34,442 nucleotides of DNA from Saprospiraceae bacterium. Its GTDB lineage: Bacteria; Bacteroidota; Bacteroidia; Chitinophagales; Saprospiraceae. Location of the stretch: contig JAHDHB010000010.1 of assembly GCA_020631545.1 (NCBI GenBank), forward strand, positions 1 to 34,442, written 5' to 3'. The notes below the pieces were generated by a model. That model was not told where the DNA came from. It made no database searches and saw nothing but the letters and a program-made list of their open reading frames with translations. This document shows positions 3,688 to 23,124 of the stretch, piece after piece. How positions within the stretch are numbered: the first letter of the stretch is position 1; every line of letters begins with the position of its first letter. The translations under genes were made by a program, and so were the position numbers.

Positions 3688-5673
3688 CTACTGAATAACA
3701 ACTTTTTTAGACAGCAACTCTTCATCATAACGCAGTTGAACCAAGTAAACGCCTTTTGCTACGTCTTTCAAGATGATTTCCTTGTTATATCCATCTCCAA
3801 TAGTATTCAGACGCTCTTGATAAATAACTTTACCCAATAAATCTACTACAGTAAAATCTGCTTCTTGCTGTTGCAAACCATTTATCCTAAGGGTAAAGTG
3901 TCCATTATTTGGATTTGGGCTAATCGAAAGTTTATTATCTCTAGTAATATCAATGTCTTCCGTTGCTACAATCATACAATCTCCTCCTTGGGGTACAGCC
4001 TCTAAATCTCCTATCGTGAATTGGTAGTATACTTCAGAACCAAAATCTGTTTGGAAGGTCTTAATGGGTTGACCTGTAGCATATTTTAAACGAAGAGAGC
4101 CCACTCCTGCGCCTTGATTGTTCCACCAGTATAATCCTTGGCCTCCAGAATCCCAAAGGCGGAAGGTATAGCATCCTGGGTCAAGATTAAACGTGTCAGA
4201 GTATTGAGTGCTAGGGCTTAAAGAGCCTTCCGCTCTTTCCATTATTAAACTCCCCTCAGAATCCGTCAAGGTATAGCTATTCTCGTTGGCTTGGTTGTTC
4301 GTCAATAACTCCCAAACAATCGGTCCATTGTATTTTGGTGTAACTTCAAATGCAGAAGAAAGTGTATTGTTCCAAGCATAATCATCAGCACTACCATTTA
4401 CGGCTGAAATACTGACTTCAAAAACAGGATTTGTAGGATCTAAATCCGCCCAAGAGGGGGTCGGCAATTCGATTTCAGCTTCTTCGAAAGTAGGAAGAGT
4501 TCCGAACCAAGTATAGGCACAAGAAGCACCACCCTCTACACCATAAGTAAAAGTAATCGAGGTTGCAGTCGTTGCACCTGTATTTCGTACTTTGATTTTT
4601 GGATTGCCACAAATAGGATTGTGCCGGCTATAAGGATCTTGCATAGAAGGCGAAAGAATATCCACGAGTTCAACATCTCGATTGAAATTCATAGCACCAT
4701 AATGCACTAATTGTACATCATAAATATAATAGGGTGCTTGATCGCCGCTCCAAGTATAGTTTTGAATATTCAAATCTAATTGAGCATCCGTTCCCGGAGT
4801 CAAAAAAGGTGTTAATTCATGTTCATGCAAATTGGATTTATCACCAGGGCACCAATCTGCTCGATTGTAAATCCATGTTCCTCCTTGAGGATAGATTGGA
4901 TTCAAGCCACAATCACCTCTCCACATCAAAGCGCTACCCACCTCAAAACCATTGACTTTGAAAGCATAAGAACGTTCACAAAACTCTGCACAGCCTGTAT
5001 TGTTATCAAACCCATGACCTGTTATGCTAATTCGCACTTTTGTTTGTTCAGCATTAGCGGGAATACTGACGTCTTTGAAGGGGAAATTGCTAATATCAAA
5101 AGAAACAGGCGTATTGTAATTGTCTCTTCCTCTATAAAGATTATCAATAGCAATAATATCTCTAGGAGGAGTTCCTTCTATAAATTCAAATCGCAAGCTA
5201 ATGCTAAAGCCATCTGACCAACCATCATAAAAGGCACGAACTTGAACAGAATCCATCAGCCTTGGCGCAAAATCGGTTACATCAAAAGCATAGGTGTGCG
5301 ACCAACTGTTGTCAAATCCATTCGCCCCATCTGCCATATAGCCCCCGTAAGGCGTGATGACACGACCCAATTCAAGGTTTTGGGTACCATCAGAAGGATC
5401 GGGGACTAGGAAAACCTGTGTCGTGTAGTCCCAGTCACTACAACCATTGGAGGAACACCCTAAGGTATAAAACATCGTGATTTTACGGTACGATTTGCTA
5501 CCATCAGGAAAATAGCCCATTTGATTATAGTTTTCATTCCACACCATATCTACGGCATCATGAACGTAAATATTCGTAGTATCACCCTCTGCCGCTAGGC
5601 TAAATTGAGGTGATAACAAGCAGAGAATCAAAAAGACACATAGGGGCTTGAATACGTAGAAATAAAATTTCAT
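3688..5673 (-). CDS. Peptide-N-glycosidase F-like protein with T9SS type A sorting domain
   Basis: Signal peptide; SYRKITMFYTLGCSSNGCSDWDYTTQVFL and RVITPYGGYM resemble PNGase F-type N/C domains; C-terminal ISPNPNNGHFTLRI...KGVYLVQLRYDEELLSKKVVIQ sorting domain. Confidence 0.85.
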   Translation of the reverse strand: MKFYFYVFKPLCVFLILCLLSPQFSLAAEGDTTNIYVHDAVDMVWNENYNQMGYFPDGSKSYRKITMFYTLGCSSNGCSDWDYTTQVFLVPDPSDGTQNLELGRVITPYGGYMADGANGFDNSWSHTYAFDVTDFAPRLMDSVQVRAFYDGWSDGFSISLRFEFIEGTPPRDIIAIDNLYRGRDNYNTPVSFDISNFPFKDVSIPANAEQTKVRISITGHGFDNNTGCAEFCERSYAFKVNGFEVGSALMWRGDCGLNPIYPQGGTWIYNRADWCPGDKSNLHEHELTPFLTPGTDAQLDLNIQNYTWSGDQAPYYIYDVQLVHYGAMNFNRDVELVDILSPSMQDPYSRHNPICGNPKIKVRNTGATTATSITFTYGVEGGASCAYTWFGTLPTFEEAEIELPTPSWADLDPTNPVFEVSISAVNGSADDYAWNNTLSSAFEVTPKYNGPIVWELLTNNQANENSYTLTDSEGSLIMERAEGSLSPSTQYSDTFNLDPGCYTFRLWDSGGQGLYWWNNQGAGVGSLRLKYATGQPIKTFQTDFGSEVYYQFTIGDLEAVPQGGDCMIVATEDIDITRDNKLSISPNPNNGHFTLRINGLQQQEADFTVVDLLGKVIYQERLNTIGDGYNKEIILKDVAKGVYLVQLRYDEELLSKKVVIQ

Positions 5674-10733: not shown

Positions 10734-12605
10734 TTAGAGACTTGACACTACGACTACCTTCTGAAGCAAATGGGTTCCGTCTGCGGTCATCCCTTTTACA
10801 AAATATATTCCTTCAGGAATATTCGTGACGTCGAAAGACCAAGCATTACCGTCTTGTTTTCCTTCAAACAATGTTTTTACTCTTTTTCCATCTATGCTGT
10901 ATAGCGCTAAGTTCAAAACAGCAGCGGCATCGTCTTCAATTCGTACATTTACACTCCCGATGGCAGGATTTGGAAATACTTGCAAATTTTCTTCTTGGTT
11001 AAGAATTAACCTCTTAGGCGTTATGGGGTCATGCATTAAGCTGGAAGCAATCCTTACATTACTAGGCGAAATCGTAGGAAAATAAGCCTGAGAACAGTGA
11101 TTCCCTACAACATCAGTATAAGCAATGACTTCAAAGTCACTTGTAAAGTTATAAAGATCATTGGAGCAGGAGGTTTCTACCTGTTGGAAGAGAGCATTGG
11201 CGGCAAACTCTATGTGTAAGAAATCCTCTAAGTAAGCAAGCCCTAGGTCATTTGCATGAATAGAAAAGACATCCCCAGTGTTTAAGCCCATAAAAACACC
11301 TAATAATGCTCCTTGGTTTCCATTCAACACTATAGCATCTGCATATTCTAATCCATTATACTGCAATACTACAGACTCTAAGCCGACATAACATTCACAT
11401 ATGGGAGCTTCTTCTTCACAAGTATAACCCTCCATATCTTCGTAGGCAACCACCCTAAAGTCACCAAACGTTTCCCCTTGAATTTCCTCTGTACAAGAGG
11501 TATTTATAACGAGCTCTGTTGTATCATTGACGTATAGGTAAGTATCTCCTGCTAGTTTAAGTTTTCCTGCATAAGCACTAGAAAAGGAAACAATATCTCC
11601 TGGATGAACGTTTTTATAGGCTTCTAGCGGAATCTCAAAATTTTCTTTCTTATACCCAACAATTTTGGCGGTAGTTGTTCCTTGGTATACTAGAGAAATA
11701 GAAACCATACCATCGTTACAATCACAACCATAGATGGGCGTACTCCCGCAATTTGAAGAAGTAATCATTGTATTGCAATCCCCGAGCGTATATCCTTTAT
11801 TCAGTTTTCTAGCAATTCTATCCGTACGAACACACCTCGTCGAAGGTATACTTTCATTGTCGCACATCGTAACCTTATTATTAGCACAGCTAATATCCAC
11901 AATTTCAACGGTATGATTGTGTGTTTCTATAGTCCCATAAGCATCAGTCACCGTCACTCCATAAATACTTGTTGTCGTAGGAGTTACTAGTATTTCTGAA
12001 GAGGTTTCTCCCGTACTCCAAAGGTAAGTAAAAGGAGCCGTACCATTTATCACTTCTGCCCGAATAGTCGCTCGATTAGAGTTTGAAAAACCAAGCGCTA
12101 AGGTCTGATCGTCACAAACCGTAGAAGCAAATGTTGGGTTTCCATTGTCCTTGACATAAACAACATCATAGTGGTAGTTATTCAAGGAGTCATTGTCGAT
12201 TAATGGCGGTGGCAATAATGGCCAAATAATGACTATGATATTTTGCTCCGTATCAAAATGAGCGGGATCTGCAATTATCGTCCTAGAAAATGAGAAGGTT
12301 TCATTCGGAAGGAGAACCACATTATTGAAATTATCTTGAATGTAGTCTCCATCAAAAGGAATTTGAGAAATATTAGGATTCACTGTTTCCAGCATCATCC
12401 CTATATCAACAGGCAACGTAGTTGTTCCATTATTCCTAAGCGTACCACTTATCTCAAAGGGACTACCAATGACAATGGTGTCGTCTATTTGGAAATTGAG
12501 AAATTCAATATCTGTTTGTCCCTTAGCTTGGTTCCAAGGAACCACAGCCCCTAAGAAAATCAAAAATAGAACCCGATAGAATGTCGTGTAAATTAACTGC
12601 TTCAT
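10734..12605 (-). CDS. T9SS type A sorting domain protein with CARDB-like and SprB-like regions and two copies of a Cys-rich domain
   Basis: Signal peptide; APFTYLWSTGETSSEILVTPTTTSIYGVTVTDAYG SprB-like repeat; two ~105-aa repeats (CDCNDGMVSISLVYQG...TSCTEEI...FGDFRVVAYEDMEGYTC and CECYVGLESVVLQYNG...TSCSNDL...FEVIAYTDVVGNHC); C-terminal VFPNPAIGSVNVRI...GIYFVKG sorting domain. Confidence 0.82.
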   Translation of the reverse strand: MKQLIYTTFYRVLFLIFLGAVVPWNQAKGQTDIEFLNFQIDDTIVIGSPFEISGTLRNNGTTTLPVDIGMMLETVNPNISQIPFDGDYIQDNFNNVVLLPNETFSFSRTIIADPAHFDTEQNIIVIIWPLLPPPLIDNDSLNNYHYDVVYVKDNGNPTFASTVCDDQTLALGFSNSNRATIRAEVINGTAPFTYLWSTGETSSEILVTPTTTSIYGVTVTDAYGTIETHNHTVEIVDISCANNKVTMCDNESIPSTRCVRTDRIARKLNKGYTLGDCNTMITSSNCGSTPIYGCDCNDGMVSISLVYQGTTTAKIVGYKKENFEIPLEAYKNVHPGDIVSFSSAYAGKLKLAGDTYLYVNDTTELVINTSCTEEIQGETFGDFRVVAYEDMEGYTCEEEAPICECYVGLESVVLQYNGLEYADAIVLNGNQGALLGVFMGLNTGDVFSIHANDLGLAYLEDFLHIEFAANALFQQVETSCSNDLYNFTSDFEVIAYTDVVGNHCSQAYFPTISPSNVRIASSLMHDPITPKRLILNQEENLQVFPNPAIGSVNVRIEDDAAAVLNLALYSIDGKRVKTLFEGKQDGNAWSFDVTNIPEGIYFVKGMTADGTHLLQKVVVVSSL

Positions 12606-18005: not shown

Positions 18006-20414
18006 ATGAAAATTTTATTACCGTTGCTTGCTGTTTTTATCGTTAATTCGTTTTCTATTTATGCCCAATGCCCCACAGGAGAAGCAGAATTTCAAGTAAA
18101 TATTGTCCCCGACAATTATTATCAAGAAACTTCTTGGGATCTTCAAGATGAAGCAGGAAATATCTTGTTCGGTGGTGATTTGAGCGATGGGAATCCTTAT
18201 ACTTTCTCTGCCTGTGTTCCTTCTGGAAATTGCCTCACGTTTACCATTTACGATTCTTTTGGAGACGGCATCTGTTGTAGTTTTGGTCAAGGAAATTATC
18301 AGGTTTTAATAGATGGAACTGTTATTGGTTCTGGTGGTGATTTTGATGACGAAGAAACGGTCTTAATTACTTGCCCTCCAGGGGCTTCCTGTGAAGATTC
18401 TTTTGATGCCATAGAAGGCAGTAACCTCCCTGCCCCCTTTTTGAATACCTGGTATGAATTCACCCCAAGTTTTACAGGACTTTATGAAATAAACACTTGC
18501 CTCCCTGGTAATTCTTGTGGAAATACAACCTTGTGGGTGTATGACTACTGTACGGGATTGATTTGGGATGACACGAATGAAGGCTCCATTGCCTATTCCG
18601 ATGACAATTGTAGTGGTCTATTTTCTTCTTTAGATGTAGCACTCGTTGCAGGGCAAAACTATTATATTCGTATAAAGTACGATGCAGGTATCTGCCCAAT
18701 AAGTAGTGTCGATTGGACATTGACGTACTTGGGGGCAATTACGGGGTGTATGGATCCTAATTCTTGCAATTATAACCCAACAGCTACCCAAGATGATGGC
18801 TCTTGTATTTATGAAGGCAATCCCAATTGCCCCAATGGGCCAGATTTGATCATCCTACAAGACGTCTTAGAAACTTCCTTAACCTTAGATTACTTACCTA
18901 ATAATGATGCTTGCTTGATTCAAGAAGGTTGCGTCAGTGGTTATGGTACAAGGGAAGTCATTCGATTTACAACTCATATCAAAAATATTGGAGAATCAGA
19001 TTTTTATATTGGGGAGCCTCCTTTAAGTACATCAGAACCGAGTACGCAATGGGAATGGGATCCTTGCCATAACCATTGGCACTACGAAGGTTACGCAGAG
19101 TACTTATTGTACAACATGAATGATGGAACGGAATTACCCATTGGATTTAAAAATGGTTTCTGCGTCATGGACTTAGAGTGTAACGATGGAGGAAGCCCCA
19201 AATATAACTGCGGTAATCAAGGCATTACTAGCAAATGTGGCGACATATACGACTCTAGCCTTCAATGTCAATGGATAGATATAACCAATTTGGATCCTGG
19301 CCAATACATGCTAGTTGTTCGGGTAAACTGGGATTTTTCTCCTGATGCTCTTGGAAGAATAGAAACAGATTTTGACAATAACTGGGGACAAGTTTGCTTG
19401 GATATCACTAGAGATTCAACGACAGGAAACGCCGCCTTTTCTGTCTTGCCTATTTGTGATCCCTATACCGACTGCTTGGGTAACCTCTATGGAAATGCGC
19501 AATATGACTGTAATAATGTTTGTGCCGGCAGTTCTTTACAAGGCGATATTTTTGTAGATACCTTACGAAGCTTGGCCGATCTTAATGTTTATTTAGACGA
19601 ATGCTTATTGGATACTATTTCCGCCACCTCTTGCTTAGATTTGAATGATGATGGTGAAATTACCGTTACAGATGCTACGCTCCTATTCGACTGTCTCCTC
19701 CACGGTACCGGCCCCGTGCCCGGCACACACCAGCATACGCCCTGCGTTTACCCATACGCCGTACAAAACCCTACGGACGAAGTTACCCTCAAGCTAGGGG
19801 CTTTAAGTCTAGACGATTCCTTTGTCGATATCTTAATAAAAAATCCAACGGGTCGCGTTCTTTCCTTCGAATTTGACCTTTCTGGCCTTGATATCAATTA
19901 CATTATCAATCTCGCACCCAATTATTCACCCAATTACCAACATGCTGATGGTGAAATCATTGGGCTTCCTTACGATGAAGTTAGCCTCGACAAAAACTTT
20001 GATTTTATTCCCTTCATGCGTGTATTTTTCACTTCGATGACGGACAATGAAATTTGTATTTCGAACATTACTGATTTTGTAAATTCTAACTACGAAGAAA
20101 TGGTACACAGCATAGATCCTACTTGTCTTTCCCCTACTTTCGTAGCCTTAGAAGAGTCTTCAGTTAATCCTTTCCTTGCTAAGGTCATTCCAAACCCAGC
20201 GGCAAAATCAGCAACCTTATTTTTTGAGAACAATTCTAATCGGACCATAGCATTAGATATACTAGACATCACAGGTCAACAAATCCTCACTTTTCCTGCT
20301 ATTACCACTAGGGAAGTTCTTCTTCCCTTAAAAGAATTGCCCTCAGGCATCTACATCTTTAGGCTAAATGATGGGGAAAAAATGGGTAGTGGAAAATTTG
20401 TGGTACAAAATTAG
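18006..20414 (+). CDS. Secreted lysyl oxidase-like protein with dockerin-like EF-hand segment and T9SS type A sorting domain
   Basis: WEWDPCHNHWHYEGYAEY copper motif, IGFKNGFCVMDLECNDGGSPKYNCGNQGITSKCGDIYDSSLQCQWIDITNLDPGQYMLVVRVN colinear with animal LOX catalytic domains; CLDLNDDGEITVTDATLLFDCLL; VIPNPAAKSATLFF...GIYIFRLNDGEKMGSGKFVVQN. Confidence 0.9.
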   Translation: MKILLPLLAVFIVNSFSIYAQCPTGEAEFQVNIVPDNYYQETSWDLQDEAGNILFGGDLSDGNPYTFSACVPSGNCLTFTIYDSFGDGICCSFGQGNYQVLIDGTVIGSGGDFDDEETVLITCPPGASCEDSFDAIEGSNLPAPFLNTWYEFTPSFTGLYEINTCLPGNSCGNTTLWVYDYCTGLIWDDTNEGSIAYSDDNCSGLFSSLDVALVAGQNYYIRIKYDAGICPISSVDWTLTYLGAITGCMDPNSCNYNPTATQDDGSCIYEGNPNCPNGPDLIILQDVLETSLTLDYLPNNDACLIQEGCVSGYGTREVIRFTTHIKNIGESDFYIGEPPLSTSEPSTQWEWDPCHNHWHYEGYAEYLLYNMNDGTELPIGFKNGFCVMDLECNDGGSPKYNCGNQGITSKCGDIYDSSLQCQWIDITNLDPGQYMLVVRVNWDFSPDALGRIETDFDNNWGQVCLDITRDSTTGNAAFSVLPICDPYTDCLGNLYGNAQYDCNNVCAGSSLQGDIFVDTLRSLADLNVYLDECLLDTISATSCLDLNDDGEITVTDATLLFDCLLHGTGPVPGTHQHTPCVYPYAVQNPTDEVTLKLGALSLDDSFVDILIKNPTGRVLSFEFDLSGLDINYIINLAPNYSPNYQHADGEIIGLPYDEVSLDKNFDFIPFMRVFFTSMTDNEICISNITDFVNSNYEEMVHSIDPTCLSPTFVALEESSVNPFLAKVIPNPAAKSATLFFENNSNRTIALDILDITGQQILTFPAITTREVLLPLKELPSGIYIFRLNDGEKMGSGKFVVQN

Positions 20415-22185: not shown

Positions 22186-23124
22186 ATGGAGATCACAAAA
22201 GAAATGCAAAGCCGGCTAGAGCTCTTAGAGAAAAAATTTGCCTCCTTAGGTCAAAGTATGGAGGCCTACTTGGACGGCCTTTTATATGCCGATTATTTAA
22301 CCTATTGGGATTACATTCGGGTAGATACGCTTTTGAGTCTGCAACAACCACTTACGCCATTTCCTGACGAAAAAATCTTCATTCTCTACCATCAAATTAC
22401 CGAATTATACTTCAAACTAATACGGAATGCGGTAGAACAACTACAAAAAGAAGAACAACTTAGTCCTCAACTTTTTAAGCGCCAAATTAAGCGAATTAAC
22501 GGCTATTTCGAGCAGTTAATCAATTCCTTTGGAATTATGATCGAAGGAATGGACAAGGAGGAATTCTTGAAGTTTCGAATGAGTCTACTTCCTGCTAGCG
22601 GATTCCAATCTGCACAGTATCGAATGATTGAGATTATCAGCACGGATATGCCTTGCCTTGTACATTACCAAAGGAGAGAAGGCATTACGCCTGAAAACTC
22701 TATCCATGATTTATACCAAAACATCTACTGGAAATTTGGCGCAACAGAACTCGCTACAGGGAAAAAAACCTTGACCCTTAAGCAGTTTGAAGTAAAATAT
22801 GGCGAACAATTAGTTCGTTTGGCACAAAAAGTAAAAGATTGCAATATTTGGCAACTCTACAAAAAATTGCCTAAAGAAGCGCAAGCAGACGAATCCATTA
22901 TCCAAGCGTTGAAAGAACACGATATAAATGCCAATGTTTTATGGCCTCTATCCCACTATCGTTCTGCTGTTAAGCACTTAAATCGACAACCAGAAATTAT
23001 CGCTGCCACAGGAGGAACCAACTGGCAACAATACTTACCCCCTAGAAATCAACGCATCATCTTCTACCCAGAGTTGTGGACAGAAGAAGAATTGGAAAAT
23101 TGGGGGAAAAGTGTGCGATTTTAA
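22186..23124 (+). CDS. kynA: Tryptophan 2,3-dioxygenase family protein
   Basis: TYWDYIRVDTLLSLQ, DEKIFILYHQITELYFKL, RMSLLPASGFQSAQYRMIE, ATGGTNWQQYLPP. Confidence 0.95.
   Translation: MEITKEMQSRLELLEKKFASLGQSMEAYLDGLLYADYLTYWDYIRVDTLLSLQQPLTPFPDEKIFILYHQITELYFKLIRNAVEQLQKEEQLSPQLFKRQIKRINGYFEQLINSFGIMIEGMDKEEFLKFRMSLLPASGFQSAQYRMIEIISTDMPCLVHYQRREGITPENSIHDLYQNIYWKFGATELATGKKTLTLKQFEVKYGEQLVRLAQKVKDCNIWQLYKKLPKEAQADESIIQALKEHDINANVLWPLSHYRSAVKHLNRQPEIIAATGGTNWQQYLPPRNQRIIFYPELWTEEELENWGKSVRF

Follow-up and report, generated by a model that had tools for sequence, protein, structure and literature searches.

The protein encoded on the forward strand at positions 18006–20414 of the window, by which we mean the whole 34,442-nucleotide stretch of DNA analyzed here, is most probably a copper- and lysine tyrosylquinone (LTQ)-dependent primary-amine oxidase of the lysyl oxidase (LOX) family that would be exported by the T9SS. 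We assign this reading a probability of about 85%, a figure that covers the identity of the enzyme and its export and not its purpose. The open reading frame, which lies where the initial annotation had placed it, comprises 802 codons and encodes a signal peptide, two beta-domains, the LOX domain, a dockerin-like segment, a beta-sandwich and a T9SS C-terminal sorting domain (CTD). Animals cross-link collagen with a LOX copper enzyme, and a likeness to this enzyme had been noted from the copper motif and the cofactor residues of the bacterial protein, which we refer to as the LOX-T9SS protein.

The catalytic domain and its active site

The LOX catalytic domain (residues 279–484, positions 18840–19457) was delimited by Pfam, by alignment with human LOXL2, by AlphaFold and by Foldseek. 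The Pfam search, which had been suggested as a check of the LOX assignment, matched Lysyl_oxidase (PF01186) on residues 312–464 with an E-value of 1.3e-34 and 120.1 bits at a cut-off of 20.4. Among PDB sequences, LOXL2 was the best match and the sole match to an enzyme, both with the single sequence (E = 5e-24) and with a profile of 50 relatives (E = 4.5e-40). The W-E-W-D-P-C-H stretch begins at residue 349 and leads into the predicted copper site H355-N-H357-W-H359 (positions 19068–19082), whose histidines correspond to H626, H628 and H630 of LOXL2 in the HMMER alignment. The predicted LTQ lysine K382 (positions 19149–19151) aligns with K653 and the predicted LTQ tyrosine Y415 (positions 19248–19250), which lies between C411 and C421, with Y689 (LOXL2 numbering according to PMC9659206). 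The residue numbers and the cofactor positions given in the initial annotation were thus borne out, including the spacing of 33 residues between lysine and tyrosine, which compares with 36 in LOXL2 (653/689) and 35 in human LOX (320/355, PMC4448552). The first histidine of the animal WEWH sequence is replaced by aspartate in the LOX-T9SS protein; according to the same survey (PMC4448552), this histidine is absent in bacterial LOX and dispensable as judged by the mutants cited there.

All five residues, H355, H357, H359, K382 and Y415, are kept in each of 125 further non-redundant relatives of the same subfamily (class A), and the copper site is likewise invariant in 21/21 members of a second subfamily (class B) described below. 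Such invariance rules out a chance or spurious open reading frame. The animal catalytic domain has five disulfides. The LOX domain of the bacterial protein contains ten cysteines that are invariant or nearly so, eight of which match LOXL2 in position: C303, C309, C354, C386, C392, C402, C411 and C421 align with LOXL2 cysteines and are all invariant (125/125), while C464 (invariant) and C484 (122/125) lie beyond the alignable part of LOXL2. Judged by its sequence, the domain is a LOX-family domain with the complete set of copper and LTQ residues.

Structure models point in the same direction. AlphaFold modeled the whole protein with a mean pLDDT of 86 and a pTM of 0.70 (37 sequences) and the LOX domain alone with a pLDDT of 90.4 and a pTM of 0.85 (50 sequences). 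A Foldseek search with the latter returned LOXL2 (5ze3) first, chains A and B with query TM-scores of 0.72 and 0.70 (E = 6.6e-15), and the whole-protein model likewise retrieved this structure first, with CARDB domains as distant runners-up in these searches. In the models the catalytic domain hence adopts the LOX fold. The initial annotation had regarded a model placing K382 and Y415 far from the histidine triad as a refutation. The crystal structure of the LOXL2 precursor has its LTQ lysine and tyrosine 16.6 Å apart (PMC9659206), so that a modeled lysine–tyrosine distance says little and this condition is a weak one. The likeness to animal LOXL2 and LOX thus extends over the fold (TM 0.72), the WxWxxCHxHxH motif, the two LTQ residues and at least eight cysteines in register; the animal SRCR and propeptide regions, in contrast, are absent from the LOX-T9SS protein, which carries the dockerin-like segment, the beta-domains and the T9SS tail instead.

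The sole characterized prokaryotic LOX that we found is HTU-LOX of Haloterrigena turkmenica, which has been shown by experiment to be active, requires copper and is inhibited by BAPN (PMC6452851). It shares the histidine triad and the LTQ residues with the LOX-T9SS protein, but is an archaeal protein of 308 residues with a simple layout, a partly inhibitory N-terminal stretch and no T9SS tail. The activity of HTU-LOX supports the notion that the LOX-T9SS protein is active as well.

Domain layout and predicted export

Residues 1–20 (MKILLPLLAVFIVNSFSIYA, positions 18006–18065) likely constitute a Sec signal peptide, as suggested by their sequence and a helix at residues 4–15 in the model, and similar leaders are present in relatives. 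Two N-terminal beta-domains follow. The first (residues 22–121, positions 18069–18368) is conserved across the LOX-T9SS family and gave no convincing match in a search of the PDB; the second (residues 124–243, positions 18375–18734) is defined by the family alignment and the model. A short cysteine-rich linker, GCMDPNSCNYNPTATQDDGSC (residues 247–268, positions 18744–18809), in which C248, C254 and C267 are invariant among 37 full-length relatives, connects them to the LOX domain.

Downstream of the LOX domain, residues 511–566 (positions 19536–19703) resemble type I dockerins, with calcium-loop motifs at D514–D525 and D545–D556 and helices at residues 523–535 and 554–566 in the model. Since the Pfam Dockerin_1 score of this segment falls below the cut-off (15.9 bits versus 22.9, E = 0.016), we refer to it as dockerin-like only. 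A family profile, however, matched type I dockerins of the PDB first (best E = 7e-4), which upholds the segment as originally described; D514, D525 and D545 are invariant and D549 and D556 nearly so. It is followed by a beta-sandwich of modeled strands (residues 585–705, positions 19758–20120) that is possibly cohesin-like. The whole-protein model, searched as one unit, also matched the cohesin-FN3 structure 2w1n in Foldseek, and cohesin-like domains occur elsewhere in the same genome.

The protein ends in a type A T9SS CTD (residues 727–802, positions 20184–20411). This part of the initial annotation agreed with both Pfam (Por_Secre_tail, PF18962, residues 728–800, E = 1.5e-9) and NCBIfam (TIGR04183, E = 5.8e-11). 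The host genome encodes SprA (2365 bits), has two matches to C25-family peptidases, C25 being the family that includes the PorU sortase, and contains at least 150 matches to T9SS CTDs. In its CTD family, its signal peptide and a genome that also encodes SprA and C25-family peptidases, the protein resembles other T9SS type A cargo; it differs in that the cargo domain is a LOX, for which we found no earlier description as cargo of this system. These matches support a LOX built into a T9SS cargo protein.

The combination of domains had been considered an unusual architecture, a view that did not hold, as LOX-T9SS proteins of about 800 residues are common in the Saprospiraceae and the wider order. 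The Pfam T9SS tail was found in 97 of 117 relatives with complete C-termini, and in 88 of the 110 LOX open reading frames with both ends inside their locus the LOX domain starts at residue 200–330 and is followed by 290–360 residues. Both LOX and T9SS tail were matched in each of the 37 full-length sequences aligned, which had been selected for such length and layout, and invariant cysteines are spread along the entire protein in their alignment. Because layout, tail and cysteines recur across relatives, the architecture is a conserved family trait rather than an oddity of one genome.

We propose that the protein would first be exported by Sec and would fold and form its disulfides in the periplasm. 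Copper would be bound by H355, H357 and H359, and K382 and Y415 would then self-process to the LTQ cofactor. After passage through SprA the CTD would be removed and the enzyme attached to the cell surface or released. There it may convert primary amines, among them probably the lysines of proteins, into aldehydes, whereby ammonia and H2O2 would be released.

The gene stands alone, with an Rpn-like gene 94 bases upstream on the same strand and a WecA-like gene 235 bases downstream. Elsewhere on the contig, the reverse strand encodes a further protein with a T9SS tail (positions 10734–12605, 623 residues, no further Pfam domain), and positions 22186–23124 of the forward strand encode a divergent tryptophan 2,3-dioxygenase-like protein (91 bits versus an NCBIfam cut-off of 391).

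Distribution and two LOX subfamilies

About a third of the genomes gave a LOX match within the Saprospiraceae (47 of 150) and within the order (68 of 199), whereas such matches are rare across the phylum (4 of 395 genomes drawn across the Bacteroidota). A scan of GTDB species genomes yielded no fewer than 533 relatives; among the 80 best of them, nearly all are from Bacteroidota (Saprospiraceae, Chitinophagales and Flavobacteriales). Most homologues stem from MAGs; one originates from an isolated, named species, Phaeodactylibacter luteus. A class A LOX also occurs in a record titled Euryarchaeota archaeon (L163, PBNL01000011.1), which shares neighboring genes with loci of Flavobacteriales MAGs and is probably a mislabeled or contaminated MAG. 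A mobile or viral origin of the gene was considered and rejected: there was no phage match, and the single plasmid match (Gemmatirosa) showed 30% identity.

The same order harbors a second type of LOX, class B, with a GHxHxHxDxW copper motif and both the LTQ lysine and tyrosine kept (e.g. L061, L062 and L079). Further loci include L064, L066, L072 and L080, among others, and L073 carries a tandem pair. Class B shares the histidine triad, the LTQ residues and in many members a T9SS-like tail with class A, but differs in its motif, lacks cysteines matching C354, C411 and C421 and forms a separate clade in the trees (support 100/100). Their weak Pfam matches (profile positions 128–197) might have been false positives, an explanation that we rejected as the kept residues mark a real second LOX subfamily. 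Two other sampled members of the host's genus possess class B LOX only. In six loci (L067, L068, L069, L070, L071 and L033) the class B LOX is located at the extreme C-terminus of proteins of about 470–500 residues without a T9SS tail; hence, not every Bacteroidota LOX is T9SS cargo.

The nearest neighbors of the LOX-T9SS protein in the trees point to the Saprospiraceae as the family of its host. LOXL2 groups there with class A against class B (100/100), and its position inside or beside class A shifts with sampling. Since the trees sampled one animal sequence, LOXL2, and one other bacterial phylum, we treat the grouping of animal LOX with class A as a lead and not as a result. Class A bears on the origin of animal LOX, with which it has the copper motif and no fewer than eight cysteines of the catalytic domain in common; the number of disulfides is highly variable among LOX proteins overall (PMC6452851).

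Possible substrates and purpose

The purpose that best fits a surface-tethered enzyme with binding-type domains is, as we tentatively suggest, to oxidize lysines and to cross-link proteins of the surface or matrix of the cell itself, for instance in a biofilm, sheath or adhesive, similar to the animal extracellular matrix. This suggestion is in line with the type A CTD, which would direct the enzyme to the surface, with the binding-type modules and with the chemistry of the family, and a LOX-like protein secreted by the alga Cyanidium has been proposed to stabilize its protein-rich wall (PMC6508830). The genomic context, however, did not point to a substrate. Comparison of 94 neighborhoods revealed no generally linked neighbor or substrate gene, with neighbors in common only within groups of at most eight loci, so that we rejected an operon or substrate linkage. 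A collagen-like substrate was equally rejected: no collagen-like protein was matched in the host genome, and among 150 genomes LOX and collagen-like genes occur together in 16 where 17.9 were expected (Fisher p = 0.59). The collagen analogy is hence unsupported, while the LOX chemistry is supported.

About as likely as cross-linking is that the same enzyme serves another task and deaminates extracellular polyamines, other small amines or amine antibiotics, which it would scavenge as a source of nitrogen or detoxify for protection, or that it generates H2O2 against competitors. HTU-LOX has a relaxed specificity and oxidizes taurine, cadaverine, an aminoglycoside and polymyxin (PMC6452851), a breadth of substrates that leaves scavenging as open as cross-linking. 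An accessory function of this kind would also fit the patchy presence in about one third of the genomes and the stand-alone position of the LOX genes. On the other hand, the large conserved scaffold of dockerin-like segment and beta-domains, which is absent from the archaeal enzyme (308 residues), suggests placement near a macromolecular target.

We consider it improbable that the enzyme acts on eukaryotic proteins of prey, algal or host matrix, as the initial annotation had offered as one option. In animals, LOX acts on matrix proteins rich in lysine, and the same contig encodes a 661-residue T9SS cargo protein (positions 3688–5673, reverse strand) in which the two domains of PNGase F were matched (PF09112, E = 7.8e-7; PF09113, E = 1.1e-16), by its sequence a putative exported peptide N-glycosidase F-like enzyme of an N-glycan-removing class. 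However, this gene is 12 kb away from the LOX gene without an operon link, the homologues are derived mostly from MAGs, and there is no indication of a eukaryotic target. Although many T9SS surface proteins are adhesins of beta-domains, a LOX fold that has lost its catalytic function and serves as a structural or metal-binding module instead is highly implausible in view of the triad, lysine and tyrosine that are invariant throughout class A and kept even in the divergent class B.

LOX proteins in Bacteroidetes, and thus of the same phylum and Pfam family as the LOX-T9SS protein, were reported by Grau-Bove et al. in 2015; the excerpt of their article (PMC4448552) describes most prokaryotic LOX as LOX-only and contains no mention of a multidomain T9SS form. 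Our literature search, which covered a minority of subscription papers and no bioRxiv preprints, returned no paper on a T9SS-exported LOX. While the enzyme is known, its export route and scaffold are apparently undescribed. The most far-reaching reading, that Saprospiraceae and their relatives use T9SS-exported, LTQ-forming LOX of two separate subfamilies to cross-link proteins of their own surface or matrix, acting on non-collagen substrates and possibly standing near the animal LOX lineage, is doubtful as a whole; if true, bacteria would possess an equivalent of the cross-linking of the animal matrix. What bacterial LOX do has been an open question since 2015, and the LOX-T9SS family now provides a predicted location, export by the T9SS to the cell surface. 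Given this location, the conserved scaffold, hundreds of sequences and the homologue in Phaeodactylibacter luteus, the role of bacterial LOX becomes directly testable.
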